DNA of 64,000 bases from an uncultured Acidobacteriia bacterium. GTDB lineage: Bacteria > Acidobacteriota > Terriglobia > Bryobacterales > Bryobacteraceae. Both the position numbers and the translations under genes were made by a program. Below, piece by piece: positions 4,937 to 10,289 of this stretch; position 1 is the stretch's first letter, and each line of letters begins with the position of its first letter. The notes beneath the pieces were generated by a model. The model was not told where the DNA came from, ran no database searches, and saw only the letters and a list, made by a program, of their open reading frames with translations. Location of the stretch: NCBI GenBank assembly GCA_903851195.1, contig CAINNJ010000004.1, positions 62,001 to 126,000 of the forward strand, in the 5' to 3' direction.

Positions 4937-5701
4937 ATGCTGCTGGCTCTGGACGCGGGAAACACGAATATCACGATCGGCATCTTCCGGGATGGCGAAC
5001 TGGCCGATCATCGCCGCTTGCGCACGGTGCGCGAGCAGACCTCCGACGAGTGGGGCATCCTGCTGATGAGCCTGCTGCGCTATGCGTCGCTCGACCCGGC
5101 GGAGGTGAACGGGATCATCGTATCGTCCGTGGTGCCGCCCCTGAACAGCGCGCTGGCGGAGATGGCACAGCGGTATTTTCGGCTGGATGCGATGTTCGTG
5201 ACGGCGAGCACGGATACGGGGCTGACCATTCTCTACGACAATCCCGGGGAAGTGGGCGCCGACCGCATTGTGAACAGTGTGGCGGCGCTGCACCAGTATG
5301 GCGGGCCGTGCGTGATTGTGGACCTGGGCACGGCGATTACTTTCGACGCCATTTCGGCGAAAGCGGAGTATCTGGGCGGGATTATCGCGGCGGGTATCGG
5401 CATTTCGGCGGAAGCGCTGTTCAGCCGGACGGCGCGGCTGCCGCTGGTGGATTTCCGGAAGCCGCGAAATGTGATCGGGACCAATACCGTGGCGAGCATG
5501 CAGTCCGGGCTGTTTTACGGGGCGATCGGCGCGATCGACGGGATTATCGAACGGCTGGTGCAGGAACTGGGTCCGGATACCAGAACGATCGCGACGGGCG
5601 GCCAGGCGCAGCTGATCGCGGGCGGTTCACGCTACATCCGGCACGTGGACGAGAATCTGACACTGGAAGGTTTGCGGCTGATCTGGGAACGCGCGCATTG
5701 A
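4937..5701 (+). CDS. coaX: type III pantothenate kinase
   Basis: Catalyses ATP-dependent phosphorylation of pantothenate, the first step of coenzyme A synthesis, in the cytoplasm. It has 254 residues, typical for CoaX. The ASKHA-fold motifs are visible: phosphate-1 loop LDAGNTNITIG at the N-terminus, the GADRIVN motif near residue 106, and the DLGTAITFD phosphate-2 motif near 129. The type III enzyme is the form used by many Acidobacteriota instead of CoaA and is not feedback inhibited by CoA. It lies 3 nt after argS and 16 nt before the next gene, so it is most likely expressed from the argS promoter. Confidence 0.96.
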   Translation: MLLALDAGNTNITIGIFRDGELADHRRLRTVREQTSDEWGILLMSLLRYASLDPAEVNGIIVSSVVPPLNSALAEMAQRYFRLDAMFVTASTDTGLTILYDNPGEVGADRIVNSVAALHQYGGPCVIVDLGTAITFDAISAKAEYLGGIIAAGIGISAEALFSRTARLPLVDFRKPRNVIGTNTVASMQSGLFYGAIGAIDGIIERLVQELGPDTRTIATGGQAQLIAGGSRYIRHVDENLTLEGLRLIWERAH

Positions 5702-5717: not shown

Positions 5718-6404
5718 GTGAGCGAGAGTTTCCACAACTACTTCAACTACTTCACGGAAATCGAGGAGCATTTTCAGAAAGCCCGCGGCACGGCTTTGTT
5801 TTTGCTCTCGCCGCTGGACTGGGCTCTCATCGAGACGTGGAAAAACGGCGGCGTTCCGCTGGAAGCGGTGCTGCGCGGCATCGACGCGGCGTTTGAGAAA
5901 TGGCGGGCGAAGAAGTCGCGGGCGCAGCAGGTGAATTCCCTGGCGTTCTGTTCCCAGGCGGTGATGGTGGAAGCGCAGCGAATGGCCGACGCCGGTCAGG
6001 CTCGTCCGAAGCCGGAAGAAACGGCGGCGCCCTTCGCGGGAGACGAGATACGCCGGTATCTGGAGCGGAATTCGGAGAAAATTCGGGCAACCGGCGTGCC
6101 GGAATACGGAGTTATCTCGGATTCACTGGATCAGATAATTACGGATATCGACGTTCTGAGCGCGGATCTGGAGAGTCTGGAACAGCGACTCACGATTCTG
6201 GAGCAGAAACTGGTGGCGTTCGCGCGGACGCGGCAGACGGAAGAGCAGTCTTTGGCGTCGAGGAAAGAGCTCGATGTCTACTTACGCCCCTATCGGGCGA
6301 GGATGACCGCTCCGCAGATCGCGATGCTGGAAGCGCAGTTTCTGGAACGGTCCACGCTGGAATCGGCTGGTTTGCCAAGGTTGAGCCTGTTTTACCTGTG
6401 CTGA
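5718..6404 (+). CDS. conserved hypothetical coiled-coil protein
   Basis: This 228-residue protein matches no family I can name. It has no signal peptide or membrane span. The N-terminal half (about 1-90) is mixed helical, with an aromatic-rich opening (FHNYFNYFTEIEEHF). Residues about 130-190 form a Leu-heptad coiled coil (around LSADLESLEQRLTILEQKL). The C-terminal end again looks helical. It starts with GTG 16 nt after coaX and is the last gene of the argS operon. The arrangement 'effector half plus coiled coil' would suit a scaffold or DNA-associated protein, but that is speculation. Confidence 0.75.
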   Translation: MSESFHNYFNYFTEIEEHFQKARGTALFLLSPLDWALIETWKNGGVPLEAVLRGIDAAFEKWRAKKSRAQQVNSLAFCSQAVMVEAQRMADAGQARPKPEETAAPFAGDEIRRYLERNSEKIRATGVPEYGVISDSLDQIITDIDVLSADLESLEQRLTILEQKLVAFARTRQTEEQSLASRKELDVYLRPYRARMTAPQIAMLEAQFLERSTLESAGLPRLSLFYLC

Positions 6405-6482
6405 AAGTAGGCAGAATCTCCCATTTTTAGTTAAGCGTTTCCGACTGAAGAAACGTGACATGAGGAAAACGTAATAAAACAT

Positions 6483-6498
6483 CGTGACATACATCACG
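6483..6498. promoter_or_regulatory. CRP/FNR-family-type operator palindrome
   Basis: CGTGA-N6-TCACG is a perfect dyad, extended to ATCGTGA/TCACGAT (6481-6500). It matches the CRP-family layout TGTGA-N6-TCACA except for the outermost bases. A half copy, CGTGACAT, recurs at 6454-6461, 29 bp upstream. The site lies at the AT-rich 5' edge of the putative RNA gene, so it probably controls that transcript. No CRP/FNR-family gene is in this window. Confidence 0.5.
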
Positions 6499-6554
6499 AT
6501 TCATGATATTTTTCTAAGGAAGGTTAACGTTTGAATACGAATGGCGTGACCGGG

Positions 6555-6756
6555 TCGAAACACATTCGGTGTTACTCCGTCATAATTAAGTGGTAGGGGA
6601 AATCCGATCCCCAAAGGTTTACCGAGTGGGCTACTACTGGCGCGATTTTCGTGCATACAGAATAAGTGGCCCAGCCAACGGACGCACTCCTCCGAGCGTA
6701 CCGCTGGTTCTTTGGTGAAGCGGCAGGCGCCATCCTCCGAGCGCCTGCCGTTTTTT
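6555..6756 (+). ncRNA. putative structured small RNA with two anti-SD hairpin loops
   Basis: Successive hairpins can be drawn by hand: AACAC/GTGTT (6559-6573); GGTA+GGGG paired with CCCC and TACC across a 7-nt bulge (6592-6623); TGGGC/GCCCA (6627-6673) enclosing GCGCGA/TCGTGC (6640-6654); a bulged stem-loop (6671-6707); and the terminator hairpin (6721-6750) with its T tract. The outer pairs of the third and fourth elements share bases, so they are alternatives. The last two hairpins carry near-identical 10-nt loops, ACTCCTCCGA and CATCCTCCGA, exposing UCCUCC, the complement of a Shine-Dalgarno. I do not recognise an Rfam class. The 5' end is a guess. It could instead be a leader, but the terminator lies 74 nt before the next start. 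Confidence 0.5.
6721..6756 (+). terminator. intrinsic (rho-independent) terminator
   Basis: A perfect 10-bp inverted repeat, CGGCAGGCGC (6721-6730) and GCGCCTGCCG (6741-6750), encloses a 10-nt loop and is followed by TTTTTTG. It is the only textbook U-tract terminator seen in the window, and it closes the putative RNA gene on the + strand. Confidence 0.85.
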
Positions 6757-6771
6757 GTTGGTGCCTCGCAT

Positions 6772-6822
6772 GATAGAAATGGCGCCGCGCACGGTGGAAG
6801 TGGCGCCGCGCACGATAGAATA
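6772..6822 (+). promoter_or_regulatory. 21-bp tandem repeat promoter region of the DUF1549 gene
   Basis: Two 21-bp units (6772-6792, 6793-6813) differ at 3 positions and share TGGCGCCGCGCAC. A third partial copy begins at 6814 with GATAGAAT. The A-rich starts of the units read as -10-like hexamers TAGAAA, TGGAAG and TAGAAT; the last (6816-6821) is 8 nt before the ATG at 6830. A period of 21 bp is two helical turns, as expected for stacked sites on one DNA face. Confidence 0.5.
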
Positions 6823-6829
6823 CGACCGT

Positions 6830-8869
6830 ATGCGTCGGACATCGGCTCTCGTTGTTTTCTCCCTGCTTCTGGTGCTCGCGCCACGCGTGCCTGCCGGGTC
6901 CGCCACGGATAGCGCGAAGCTGGCGCCGCTGGGTAAGTACACGGAGGCGGAGAGGCGGCACTGGTCGTTTCTGCCGCGCCGGAATCCGGTAGTTCCCGCG
7001 TTCACGCAGGCGGCGGATCAGGCCTGGACGAAGAATCCGGTGGACGCGTTTGTGCTGGCGCGGATGCGGAAAGAGACTCTCGGTCACGCGCCGCGCGCGG
7101 ATCGCAGAACCCTGCTCCGGCGGGTCACGTTCGATCTGACGGGATTGCCGCCGACACCTGCCGAAATCGCGTCTTTTCTGAACGACCAGTCACCGCAGGC
7201 GTGGGAAAAGGTGGTGGAGCGTCTGCTCGCCAGTCCGCATTACGGGGAGCATTGGGGCAAGCACTGGCTGGATGTGGTGCGGTTCGCGGAGACGGAAGGT
7301 TATGAGTACGATAACTTCCGGCCGGACGCGTGGCGCTATCGCGACTATGTGATCCGCGCATTTAATAATGACAAGCCGTTCGACCGGTTTGTGCAGGAAC
7401 AGATCGCGGGCGATGAGATCGCGCCCGCGGAAGAGGAAACGCTGATCGCGGCGGGGTTTAATCGTCTGGGCCCGGTGCGGCGCAATGCCGGCAACCAGCT
7501 TGTGGCGAGCAGCCGGAACGAGCAACTTACGGAGATGACGAACATCGTGGGCGCCGGCATTTTGGGCGTCACGCTGGGCTGCGCGCGCTGCCATGACCAT
7601 AAGTTCGACGGCTTCCGGCAAAGCGATTATTACCGGGTGCAGGCGTTCTTCGCGGCGCTGCAGCCGAACGATCTGATCCTCGCGCCCGAAGCCGAGCAAA
7701 AGGCGTGGACGGCGAAGGCGACTCCGCTGCAGGTGGAAGTGGGCAAGCTGCAGAAGGAGATCGCCGCCGCAACCAAGGCGGGGATGCCGACCGCGGACCT
7801 GATGGCGAAGCTGGATGAGGCGCAGGACCGGTTGCCGGCTCCGCTGCCTTCGCTGTTCACCGTGAAAGACGATCCGGCAAACAAAGCTCCAATTCATCTG
7901 TTGCCGCGCGGGGATTACGAGCATCCGGGCGATCGGGTGGGCATGCGTGTGCCTGGCGTGCTGTTGCCTCCGGACGCGCCGGAACTGCCGGACGATCTGG
8001 CGAAACCGCGCGAGGCACTGGCGCAGTGGCTGACGGATCCGCGCAATCCACTGACGGCGCGCGTGATGGTGAACCGGATCTGGGCGAATCACTTCGGGCG
8101 CGGCATCGTCGCCACGCCGAACGATTTCGGGCGCATGGGTGAACAGCCGGTGGATCCGGACCTGCTGGATTATCTGGCGAACCGGTTCGTGCAGGAAGGC
8201 TGGAGCGTGAAGCAGATGCAGCGGCTGATTCTGCTGAGCAATACGTATCAGCAGGCGTCGTTGCCCGGGCCCGCTGGCATGGAGAAGGATCCGGATGCGC
8301 GGTATCTTTCGCGGTTTCCCCGGCAGCGGCTGGATGCCGAACAGATTCGCGATGCCATGATCGCGGTGGCGGGGCGGCTCAATGAGAAGCAGGGCGGACC
8401 GGGCGTGATGGTGCCGATCGAGAAGGATCTGGCGCAGGCGATGTATAAGCCGTCGCAGTGGGTTCCCGCGAAGGATTCCGCCGAGTTCAACCGCCGCAGC
8501 GTGTACCTGCTGTATAAGCGCAATTTCGAACTGCCGTTCATGCAGGCGTTTGATGCGCCCGATATGGCCGGGAGTTGTCCGCGGCGGGAATCGAGCACGC
8601 ACGCTCCGCAGGCGCTGGAACTGCTGAACGGCGATCTGGCGAACGGGATGGCGAAGGCTCTGGCGGCGCGACTGGCGGCGGAAGCCGGTCCGGATCACCG
8701 GAAGCAGATCCTGCTGGCTTATGAGCTGGTAGCGGGGCGCGCGCCCCGGCCGGCGGAGATGCAGATGGCGATGCGGTTTCTGAGTGTCGACGCAACGGCT
8801 GAAGGGAAGGCGCGGGAGCAGTTCGCGCTGGCGATGTTCAATCTGAATTCGTTTTTGTATGTGAACTAA
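6830..8869 (+). CDS. DUF1549/DUF1553 (PSD1) secreted protein lacking the N-terminal cytochrome domain
   Basis: Encodes 679 residues from ATG 6830, chosen because it starts a signal peptide (MRRTSALVVFSLLLVLAPRVPAG); the frame upstream to 6755 runs through the repeat promoter. After a short WSF linker comes the DUF1549 domain (about 55-260), with DLTGLPPTPAEI, GEHWGKHWLDVVRFAETEG and the CARCHDHK motif, a CxxCH that may bind haem. DUF1553 follows (about 390-650), with ARVMVNRIWANHFGRGIV and DAEQIRDAM. The paralogue at 29215-31803 has an extra N-terminal cytochrome c domain that is absent here. These proteins are always paired with DUF1501 proteins, and here the partner starts 1 nt downstream. 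Their biochemical role is not established. Confidence 0.9.
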   Translation: MRRTSALVVFSLLLVLAPRVPAGSATDSAKLAPLGKYTEAERRHWSFLPRRNPVVPAFTQAADQAWTKNPVDAFVLARMRKETLGHAPRADRRTLLRRVTFDLTGLPPTPAEIASFLNDQSPQAWEKVVERLLASPHYGEHWGKHWLDVVRFAETEGYEYDNFRPDAWRYRDYVIRAFNNDKPFDRFVQEQIAGDEIAPAEEETLIAAGFNRLGPVRRNAGNQLVASSRNEQLTEMTNIVGAGILGVTLGCARCHDHKFDGFRQSDYYRVQAFFAALQPNDLILAPEAEQKAWTAKATPLQVEVGKLQKEIAAATKAGMPTADLMAKLDEAQDRLPAPLPSLFTVKDDPANKAPIHLLPRGDYEHPGDRVGMRVPGVLLPPDAPELPDDLAKPREALAQWLTDPRNPLTARVMVNRIWANHFGRGIVATPNDFGRMGEQPVDPDLLDYLANRFVQEGWSVKQMQRLILLSNTYQQASLPGPAGMEKDPDARYLSRFPRQRLDAEQIRDAMIAVAGRLNEKQGGPGVMVPIEKDLAQAMYKPSQWVPAKDSAEFNRRSVYLLYKRNFELPFMQAFDAPDMAGSCPRRESSTHAPQALELLNGDLANGMAKALAARLAAEAGPDHRKQILLAYELVAGRAPRPAEMQMAMRFLSVDATAEGKAREQFALAMFNLNSFLYVN

Positions 8870-8870
8870 T

Positions 8871-10289
8871 ATGGCCGAACATATTCGATTTACCCGGAAT
8901 CGCCGGGAGTTCCTGACGGATGCGTTTTGCGGATTTGGCTCCATCGCGGCGGCGGACCTGCTGCTGCGGAGTGAGGCACGGGCGGCGACGACGAATCCTC
9001 TGGCTCCCAAACCGCCGCATCTGCAGGCCAGAGCGAAAGCGGCGGTGTTCCTGTTCATGGCCGGCGGGCCGAGCCATATGGAGACCTACGATCCGAAGCC
9101 TCTGCTCAACCAGCTGAACGGGCAGAAAAGGCCGGCGGCGTTTGGCGAGGCGAAATACCAGTTTCTGAACGATGCGTCGCGTCTGCTGGGCACGAAGCGC
9201 ACGTTCCAGCGATACGGCAAGAGCGGGATCGAGGTGTCCGATCTGTTTCCGCATACCGCGCAGTGCGTCGACGATATGGCGGTGATCCGCTCGGTGCATG
9301 GCGACATGGTGGTGCACTCGGCGGCGCAGTACCAGATGTTCACGGGGCGCATTTTACCGGGGTTCCCGAGTATCGGTTCGTGGCTGCTGTACGGGCTGGG
9401 GTCGGAGAGCGAGTCGCTGCCGGGCTATGTTGTGATGCCGGATCCCAAAGGCGCGCTGGAAGCGGGACAGCCGATGTACGGGAACGGCTTCCTGCCGGCG
9501 GTGTACCAGCCGACGACGTTCCGTCCGGGCGACCGGCCGGTGCTGAATCTGGATCTGCCAAAGGGCGTTTCGCGGGAGGACCGCGTGAAGACGCTGAACC
9601 TGATCAAGGGCCTCGATAAAGCGGACATGCGGCCCGGCGATCAGGAGCTCGAAGCGCGGCTGAACTCGTACGATCTCGCGTTCAAGATGCAGACGGAGGC
9701 TCCCGAGGTTTTCGATCTGTCGAAGGAATCGGCGAAAACGCTGGAGATGTATGGAATCGGCGAGCCGAAGACGGACGACTACGGGCGGCGGTTACTGCTG
9801 ACGCGGCGGCTGATCGAGAAGGGCGTGCGGTTCGTGGCGCCGATATCGGGCGGCGGTCCGGGCGTGCTGCAGTGGGACGCGCATGACGATATCGAGGAGA
9901 ATCATCTGCGGATGGCGGCGCAGACGGATAAGCCGGTGGCGGGTTTTCTCCAGGATCTAAAGCAGCGGGGACTGCTGGACACGACGCTCGTGGTGTGGGG
10001 CGGCGAGTTCGGCCGGTCGCCGGAATCGCAGGGGAGCAAGGGCCGCGATCATCATAATCTGGGCTTCAGCATGTGGATGGCGGGCGGCGGGGTGAAGGGC
10101 GGCACCGTGGTGGGCGCGACCGATGAGATCGGTCTAAACGCCATCAAAGATCCGTATCATCTGCGCGATGTGCACACGACGATTCTGCACCAGATGGGGC
10201 TCAATCAGGATGCGCTGAGTTTCCTGCACCAGGGGCGGCGCGAGCGCCTGACGGAAGTGCGCGGCAACGTGATCACGCAGATCGTGTAG
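8871..10289 (+). CDS. DUF1501 secreted protein (alkaline-phosphatase-superfamily fold)
   Basis: This is the 472-residue partner of the upstream DUF1549/1553 gene. A twin-arginine-like signal (NRREFLTDAFCGFGSIAAADLL, about 9-30) suggests export of a folded, possibly metal-loaded protein. Typical DUF1501 landmarks are AVFLFMAGGPSHMETYDPKP (about 58-77), a mid-protein WDAHDDIEENH, and the C-terminal GGEFGRSPESQ and GRDHHN motifs with likely metal ligands. The start is 1 nt after the preceding stop, so translation is coupled. The gene ends 4 nt before dnaE2, an unusual neighbour. Confidence 0.9.
   Translation: MAEHIRFTRNRREFLTDAFCGFGSIAAADLLLRSEARAATTNPLAPKPPHLQARAKAAVFLFMAGGPSHMETYDPKPLLNQLNGQKRPAAFGEAKYQFLNDASRLLGTKRTFQRYGKSGIEVSDLFPHTAQCVDDMAVIRSVHGDMVVHSAAQYQMFTGRILPGFPSIGSWLLYGLGSESESLPGYVVMPDPKGALEAGQPMYGNGFLPAVYQPTTFRPGDRPVLNLDLPKGVSREDRVKTLNLIKGLDKADMRPGDQELEARLNSYDLAFKMQTEAPEVFDLSKESAKTLEMYGIGEPKTDDYGRRLLLTRRLIEKGVRFVAPISGGGPGVLQWDAHDDIEENHLRMAAQTDKPVAGFLQDLKQRGLLDTTLVVWGGEFGRSPESQGSKGRDHHNLGFSMWMAGGGVKGGTVVGATDEIGLNAIKDPYHLRDVHTTILHQMGLNQDALSFLHQGRRERLTEVRGNVITQIV

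Follow-up and report, generated by a model that had tools for sequence, protein, structure and literature searches.

The question raised by this locus is whether a stretch between two protein genes of an uncultured bacterium of the Bryobacteraceae (Acidobacteriota) encodes a regulatory RNA and, if so, what the two similar hairpin loops of that RNA might bind. The stretch lies in a piece of DNA of 64,000 nt, here called the window. Both loops expose CCUCC, the core of the anti-Shine-Dalgarno (aSD) sequence. Judged from its sequence and that of its relatives, the stretch very probably makes a small regulatory RNA. The favored reading, held with moderate confidence, is a trans-acting sRNA whose CCUCC loops most likely cover the Shine-Dalgarno (SD) sites of a few SD-led messages. 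The features of the locus are as follows.

4937-5701: coaX (Pan_kinase), upstream of hyp228
5718-6404, plus strand: hyp228, encoding a 228-amino-acid protein with no Pfam match; upstream neighbor, after coaX
6481-6500: CRP-like palindrome ATCGTGACATACATCACGAT, present in the window and private to this genome
6484-6512, plus strand: candidate promoter, GTGACA - 17 nt - TATTTT, with TG before the second hexamer
6519-6757, plus strand: proposed sRNA gene of about 240 nt, as estimated from the candidate promoter (5′ end) and the terminator (3′ end)
6555-6585, plus strand: 5′ element, TCGAAAC-N16-CGTCATAA, local form of a family element
6618-6719, plus strand: helix P0, 6618-6626 with 6711-6719, nine pairs, the closing helix of a three-way junction with P1 and P2
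6627-6673, plus strand: hairpin P1, 6627-6635 with 6665-6673 and inner pairs; varies in length and sequence in relatives
6674-6708, plus strand: hairpin P2, loop ACUCCUCCGA at 6686-6695, from fold and alignment
6719-6756, plus strand: hairpin P3, the intrinsic terminator, loop CAUCCUCCGA at 6731-6740, U-run from 6751
6830-10289: PSCyt2/PSD1 gene (from 6830), then a DUF1501 gene (Pfam), downstream of the RNA

Constant loops in covarying stems

The loops ACTCCTCCGA (6686-6695) and CATCCTCCGA (6731-6740) and both copies of the 11-mer TCCTCCGAGCG (6688-6698 and 6733-6743) stand in the window exactly, to the base, where an earlier sequence-only reading had placed them. By sequence alone the repeated 11-mer is just mildly unusual and constitutes weak evidence: two copies are seen against 0.13 expected, and at least two occur in 3 of 100 shuffled sequences. 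The twin-loop feature is taken as real because it is conserved, not because the 11-mer repeats. The 86-nt stretch that holds both hairpins folds with a minimum free energy (MFE) of -41.6 kcal/mol, compared with -26.6 ± 3.0 for shuffled sequences (z = -5.1), and both loops are open in its centroid fold. The second hairpin had been proposed to double as a terminator, and it does run into TTTTTT, a T-run kept in all 14 aligned sequences.

Relatives were sought by BLASTN, with positions 6405-6770 as query, in 61 genomes: the organism's own, 18 of the same genus and 42 more distant ones. Matches were found in 15, namely the own genome and 14 of the 18 congeners, and in 0 of the 42 more distant genomes. 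The alignment comprises 14 sequences including the window; a cut-off hairpin (genome G016) and the extra copies of G009 were left out. UCCUCCG is unchanged in both loops of all 14 rows, and the P2 loop columns are identical throughout. Identity is 100% and 97% in the loop columns, compared with 74% and 90% in those of the stems, and 95.3% of cells pair on the named structure. Both sides of the pair change at 11 of 23 pairs (7 of 12 in the aligned P2 helix, 4 of 11 in P3), a number reached by 0 of 500 shuffles; controls in which the partner was slid by one to three columns gave only 1-4 such pairs. A wider hairpin set (n = 45) has 92 both-side cells against a shuffled mean of 29.

It had been suggested that the stems differ in sequence while selection holds the loops, and the compensated changes around constant loops bear this out. 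The converse, variable loops on constant stems, was looked for in the same relatives and the opposite pattern was found. Departures in the loops occur in 3 of 18 complete genus copies: loop 1 reads AACCTCC in G004, and loop 2 has TTCTCC in G014 and G017, which are identical there. G-U cells outnumber A-C cells by 40 to 6 in one alignment (A2) and by 56 to 7 in another (A5); because of the 40 to 6 excess, the RNA is placed on the plus strand.

Extent and architecture of the proposed gene

The start of the feature had been put at 6671, but it begins well upstream, with the 5′ element, P0 and P1. The candidate promoter would imply a start near 6519; one instance of the promoter pattern was found where 0.5 is expected by chance, and AT-rich -10-like stretches are seen by eye at a similar place in several relatives. 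The CRP-like palindrome previously noted upstream is indeed present in the window, but it fails as a conserved control site: GTGA-N6-8-TCAC occurs in 1 of 19 genus loci, some of them shortened by contig ends, and conserved CRP control is rejected.

The family form of the 5′ element is UG(C/U)AAC - about 16 nt - CGUC(U/A), upstream of the junction. It was suggested by an EM motif search and is present in 29 of 88 loci (some of them weak matches), whereas 20 shuffles average 1.4 and never exceed 4, and the reverse strand has one occurrence; the count is partly in-sample because search and counting used the same 88 loci. The window is not among the 29, GAAAC replacing G(C/T)AAC, and its spacing by eye is that of G011. 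At the hyp228 site, five loci have a plausibly placed 5′ element and all five have CCTCC hairpins; four more pattern matches there appear by eye to be coding or due to chance, and the reverse strand gives three.

P0 and P1 come from a long fold of the window. The helix that closes the three-way junction has at least five pairs in 14 of 19 genus MFE folds, three pairs in three, and is absent from those of G008 and G016. Its register differs in three of these 14 folds, those of the window's shorter stretch, of G013 and of G004. Compensated changes in P0 are visible by eye: UUUACC/GGUGAA, UUUACC/GGUAG and UCAC/GUGA.

In several genera (for example at loci L034, L045, L047 and L048), the hairpin that corresponds to P2 looks by eye like the terminator. 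Together with the tandem hairpin pairs of G009, this suggests that the RNA may have grown by addition of hairpin modules.

Distribution in the Bryobacteraceae

Two covariance models were used: R2, which describes the two-hairpin pair and was built from 14 genus genomes, and R3, which covers just the terminator hairpin and draws on 45 family sequences. R2 matches 19 of 19 genus genomes, 18 of them convincingly, although 14 of the 19 had built the model; G004, G018, G014 and G017, which had not, match at E-values from 3e-16 to 1e-9. The match in G016 (E = 8e-4) is probably a false place; a contig end truncates the true copy of this genome. In the family, 68 of 150 genomes match R2; 66 of the 69 rows of matches outside the genus were inspected, and CCTCC is present in 64. 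A phylum draw gave matches in 3 of 396 genomes, namely the own genome, a second member of the family and a genome from elsewhere; the latter two matches are without CCTCC.

R3 matches 27 of 41 family genomes, 26 at E≤2e-5 and with a single match in all but one, and finds no match in the other 14. Fourteen of the 41 genomes had supplied sequences to the model; of the 27 that had not, 12 match at E≤2e-5. In an order draw, 17 of 21 family genomes have an R3 match. It is at E≤2e-5 in 16 of them, including 13 of the 18 not used in the model. Three of 20 genomes of other families also match, at E of about 3e-4 and without CCUCC. In a phylum draw, besides the own genome, 5 of 39 genomes match R3, all at E above 1e-4. 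Outside the family, R3 thus finds no match at E≤2e-5 in 59 genomes (20 of other families of the order, 39 of the phylum). Eight weak matches were inspected: six (L237, L238, L239, L243, L246 and L247) have no CCUCC loop, and the extracts of the other two, L244 and L245, may have missed the match. Filters were stricter for R2 over the 150 and 396 genomes and for R3 over the 41 family genomes and the order draw than for R2 over the 19 genus genomes and for the R3 phylum draw.

Because both models contain the loops, part of the family-wide constancy of the loops comes from the search itself. This bias bears less on the 5′ element and on the genus set, which BLASTN had found. Of the 88 loci, 43 have a single CCTCC in their last 165 nt, 38 have two and 7 have three, and not every occurrence need sit in a loop.

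Each model has one match in the own genome, and a genome-wide search for CCTCCGA-N4-26-TTTTT gave 8 matches against 15 for the backward control; no further copy was found by these searches. Elsewhere, G009 carries tandem extra hairpin pairs at two contig ends (L003:55-295, reverse strand, and L017:1-235), and up to three CCTCC motifs per stretch are seen in L026, L028, L042, L063, L078 and L090. The first three of these loci have two neighbor genes in common, which we take to be MoaB-like and HAD-like.

Comparison with known RNAs

Membership of a known family was judged by a cmscan score at or above the curated Rfam gathering score. No Rfam family reaches its threshold in the window, in positions 6400-6860 or in the 20 homologous loci scanned. 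The rhizobial ar14 type had been named as a comparison, and an apt one: ar14 (RF02344; NfeR1 of Sinorhizobium) is the best Rfam match in the window, at 27.9 bits against a gathering score of 58.8 (E = 0.0022 in a 461-base search). Among 20 homologous loci it scores 36.6 and 36.3 bits in L185 and L186, all below the gathering score, and has no match at E≤5 in the other 18. The likeness lies in CCUCC-type aSD motifs in exposed hairpin loops, including that of the last hairpin, which is a terminator. Differences are the loop sequence, UCCUCCGA in the window RNA and CCUCCUCCC in ar14, the three-way junction, the 5′ element and the phylum of origin. NfeR1 is described as a 123-nt Hfq-independent transcript that silences ntrB via redundant aSD motifs (PMC10746234), and PMC3927594 describes rhizobial sRNAs of three and four hairpins in which the loops read CCUCCUCCC and the stems vary.

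The CcsR or cuckoo RNAs (Rhodobacter RS0680a and its relatives; RFMSmelA075 and A099 of Rhizobiales) consist of two to four hairpin modules whose loops carry aSD motifs and whose stems vary (PMC3927594). The window RNA likewise has aSD loops on tandem modules whose stems have diverged, and G009 has extra hairpin pairs. The CcsR1 model scores at best 22.5 bits (L185), compared with a gathering score of 65.3, and CcsR has no match at E≤5 in positions 6400-6860. CcsR/cuckoo RNAs are reported in several copies per genome (PMC3927594), whereas the window RNA nearly always has one match per genome. Rhodobacter CcsR RNAs are co-transcribed with a DUF1127 protein, as described in PMC10253847; the upstream neighbor of the window RNA is in contrast the 228-amino-acid protein without a Pfam match.

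Candidate non-coding RNAs of Acidobacteria, Acido-1 (RF01686), Acido-Lenti-1 (RF01687) and Solibacter-1, are listed in PMC2864571. The comparison with Rfam had been proposed to include Acido-1. The window has no match to Acido-1 or Acido-Lenti-1 at the gathering score, and positions 6400-6860 have none at E≤5. Solibacter-1 carries no Rfam accession in the table of that paper (Weinberg et al., 2010); it could be related to the window RNA.

AbcR1/2, CyaR and RNAIII gave no match at Rfam thresholds. Their architecture differs from that of the window RNA. Each has a partial aSD motif in a loop, and this motif pairs with ribosome sites (PMC3927594). Other weak Rfam matches are Qrr and STnc390 in the window and RT-1, PyrR204 and Cis2_sRNA elsewhere in the loci. 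The weak matches of the homologues include ar14, ar7 and CcsR1, which are alphaproteobacterial or CCUCCUCCC-motif RNAs, and this fits similarity of design rather than shared descent. By analogy, the window RNA may work like the alphaproteobacterial anti-SD sRNAs (ar14/NfeR1, CcsR), although its scores stay below the threshold for membership. Searches of the literature library used listed no description of the window RNA.

Shine-Dalgarno sites and the possible action of the loops

SD usage was counted crudely, from the naive starts of the longest open reading frames in 800 kb of the own genome (contig C4, L248-L287). GGAGG precedes 8 of 501 first starts, compared with 5 in the control; the corresponding figures are 28 and 15 for AGGA and 12 and 2 for AGGAG. 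When any early start is counted, GGAGG is found 17 times against 18. The same count in 50 kb of Escherichia coli K-12 gives AGGA at 14 of 41 starts against 1, and GGAGG at 3 against 0. By this crude count, SD motifs look rare in the 800 kb examined. With GGAGG leaders apparently rare, targets should be few, and a general blocking of SD sites would reach few genes.

In the favored reading, the RNA is an sRNA gene product of about 240 nt, single copy in nearly every carrier genome, in which the 5′ element and the P0/P1/P2 junction would precede the terminator hairpin P3. The loops of P2 and P3 are predicted to hold CCUCC open, so that each could kiss GGAGG(A). By covering SD sites they would lower the translation of a few SD-led messages, the two loops perhaps acting cooperatively and perhaps with Hfq. 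It had also been supposed that such an RNA silences GGAGG-led messages and leaves leaderless ones untouched, which it might do; leaderless genes average 13.3% in three acidobacterial genomes (PMC3160421). The rarity of GGAGG leaders and the presence of an encoded Hfq are in favor of a selective action. Hfq is encoded (93.6 bits) and the RNA ends in a hairpin and U-run, as far as sequence goes a precondition of an Hfq-dependent sRNA only. NfeR1, the best-studied analogue, is Hfq-independent, which counts against a role for Hfq (PMC10746234).

The genome has 21 sites of the form TCGGAGGA-N2-10-ATG, compared with 7 for the backward pattern. Of 20 examined, three head an open reading frame of over 200 amino acids: a prephenate dehydratase, a response-regulator-like protein (below the Pfam cut-off) and a Sortilin-Vps10-like protein. 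This genome-wide search of TCGGAGGA sites before ATG gave no convincing target. At pre-start places in the 800 kb, GGAGGA is preceded by TC in 4 of 22 cases, by AA in 3 of 11 and by AC in 3 of 19, so that the value for TC is high, but not special.

The apparently rare use of SD sites fits the idea of selective silencing yet leaves room for another loop partner. A conserved sRNA might instead bind a protein through its loops, or kiss GGA-bearing loops, for example of a CsrA-binding RNA, and so act as a sponge or scaffold. CsrA is encoded (69.3 bits), the apparent rarity of SD sites on the 800 kb weakens a general anti-SD reading, and a flanking GA is conserved in the loops beyond what pairing with GGAGG needs. 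As the RNAalifold structure suggests, however, that GA may serve simply to shut the loop through U-A and C-G pairing, and the exposed CCUCC equals the ribosomal anti-SD core. Moreover, the rhizobial and Rhodobacter RNAs of like anatomy described so far in PMC3927594 and PMC10746234 act by blocking ribosome sites. A sponge or scaffold is considered unlikely.

Genomic context and probable independence of the gene

Four open reading frames span the region and none has a Pfam match; among the matches listed, their similarity in the genus loci is limited to short segments at the hairpins, some of them interrupted by stops. The earlier view that no protein gene explains the region holds, and a protein-coding explanation is rejected, similarity among the matches listed being confined to the hairpins. 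By eye, two units GAA(A/G)TGGCGCCGCGCACG are seen at 6776-6793 and 6797-6814, in the gap that separates the sRNA from the PSCyt2/PSD1 gene.

The protein encoded by hyp228 is conserved in 13 aligned sequences, with an invariant YFNYFTE near the N-terminus and LPRLSLF at the C-terminus, and has 515 relatives in named genomes. Its gene lies on the same strand directly before the RNA in the window. Of the 15 genus loci L002-L016, 11 have it next to the RNA, and two of the other four are cut by a contig end. The hairpins might thus be the terminator and 3′ UTR of a coaX-hyp228 operon, and the RNA a processed 3′ end with no promoter of its own. In other genera, hyp228 adjoins the RNA in four loci (L030, L031, L037 and L038), but in many loci other genes do, presumably encoding FabF-, GlmM-, Nramp- and MoaB-like proteins. 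In the best 80 of the 515 relatives, a CCUCC hairpin was found downstream of hyp228 at 8 loci, and none within 700 nt at the other 72, a few of which end early; an obligatory link to hyp228 is rejected. The eight loci with the hairpin are labeled uncultured Acidobacteriia (two), Bryobacteraceae (three), Terriglobia, Bryobacterales and Nevskia soli, the last label surely being wrong. For a plain terminator, moreover, neither a constant loop nor a second hairpin or 5′ element would be required. An operon 3′ end therefore appears distinctly improbable, although processing from a longer transcript may occur, by analogy with that described for CcsR (PMC10253847). Because neighbors differ elsewhere and 72 of the 80 hyp228 loci are without the hairpin, the RNA is most simply seen as an independent gene.

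A cis-acting leader or attenuator of the PSCyt2/PSD1 gene, for which the position upstream on the same strand and the terminator at the end would speak, is very improbable, as similarity to PSD1 is found in the window locus alone among 58 loci. Equally remote is a chance repeat, or ordinary terminators without loop function: the 11-mer repeat is itself mildly unlikely, and the covariation around constant loops, genus-wide presence (R2 in 19 of 19 genomes), 5′ element, single copy and family restriction, with 11 of 23 both-side pairs against 0 of 500 shuffles, reject it for practical purposes.

Significance for the Bryobacteraceae

Regulatory RNAs of the Acidobacteriota are little known, and one review gives four annotated sRNAs for the phylum (PMC9029176). 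The candidate described here is mostly single-copy and family-wide, with a clear seed and a covariance model. It is tentatively hypothesized, as a possibility short of an expectation, that it represents an unrecorded sRNA family of the Bryobacteraceae that reached anti-SD loops independently of the alphaproteobacterial families and may serve as a switch for the SD-led minority of messages while the rest are translated. Should SD-led initiation prove exceptional with curated starts as well, an anti-SD RNA would be selective by default. If the genome is truly SD-poor, this RNA would offer a test of the anti-SD loop as a selective regulator as against a general brake on translation.
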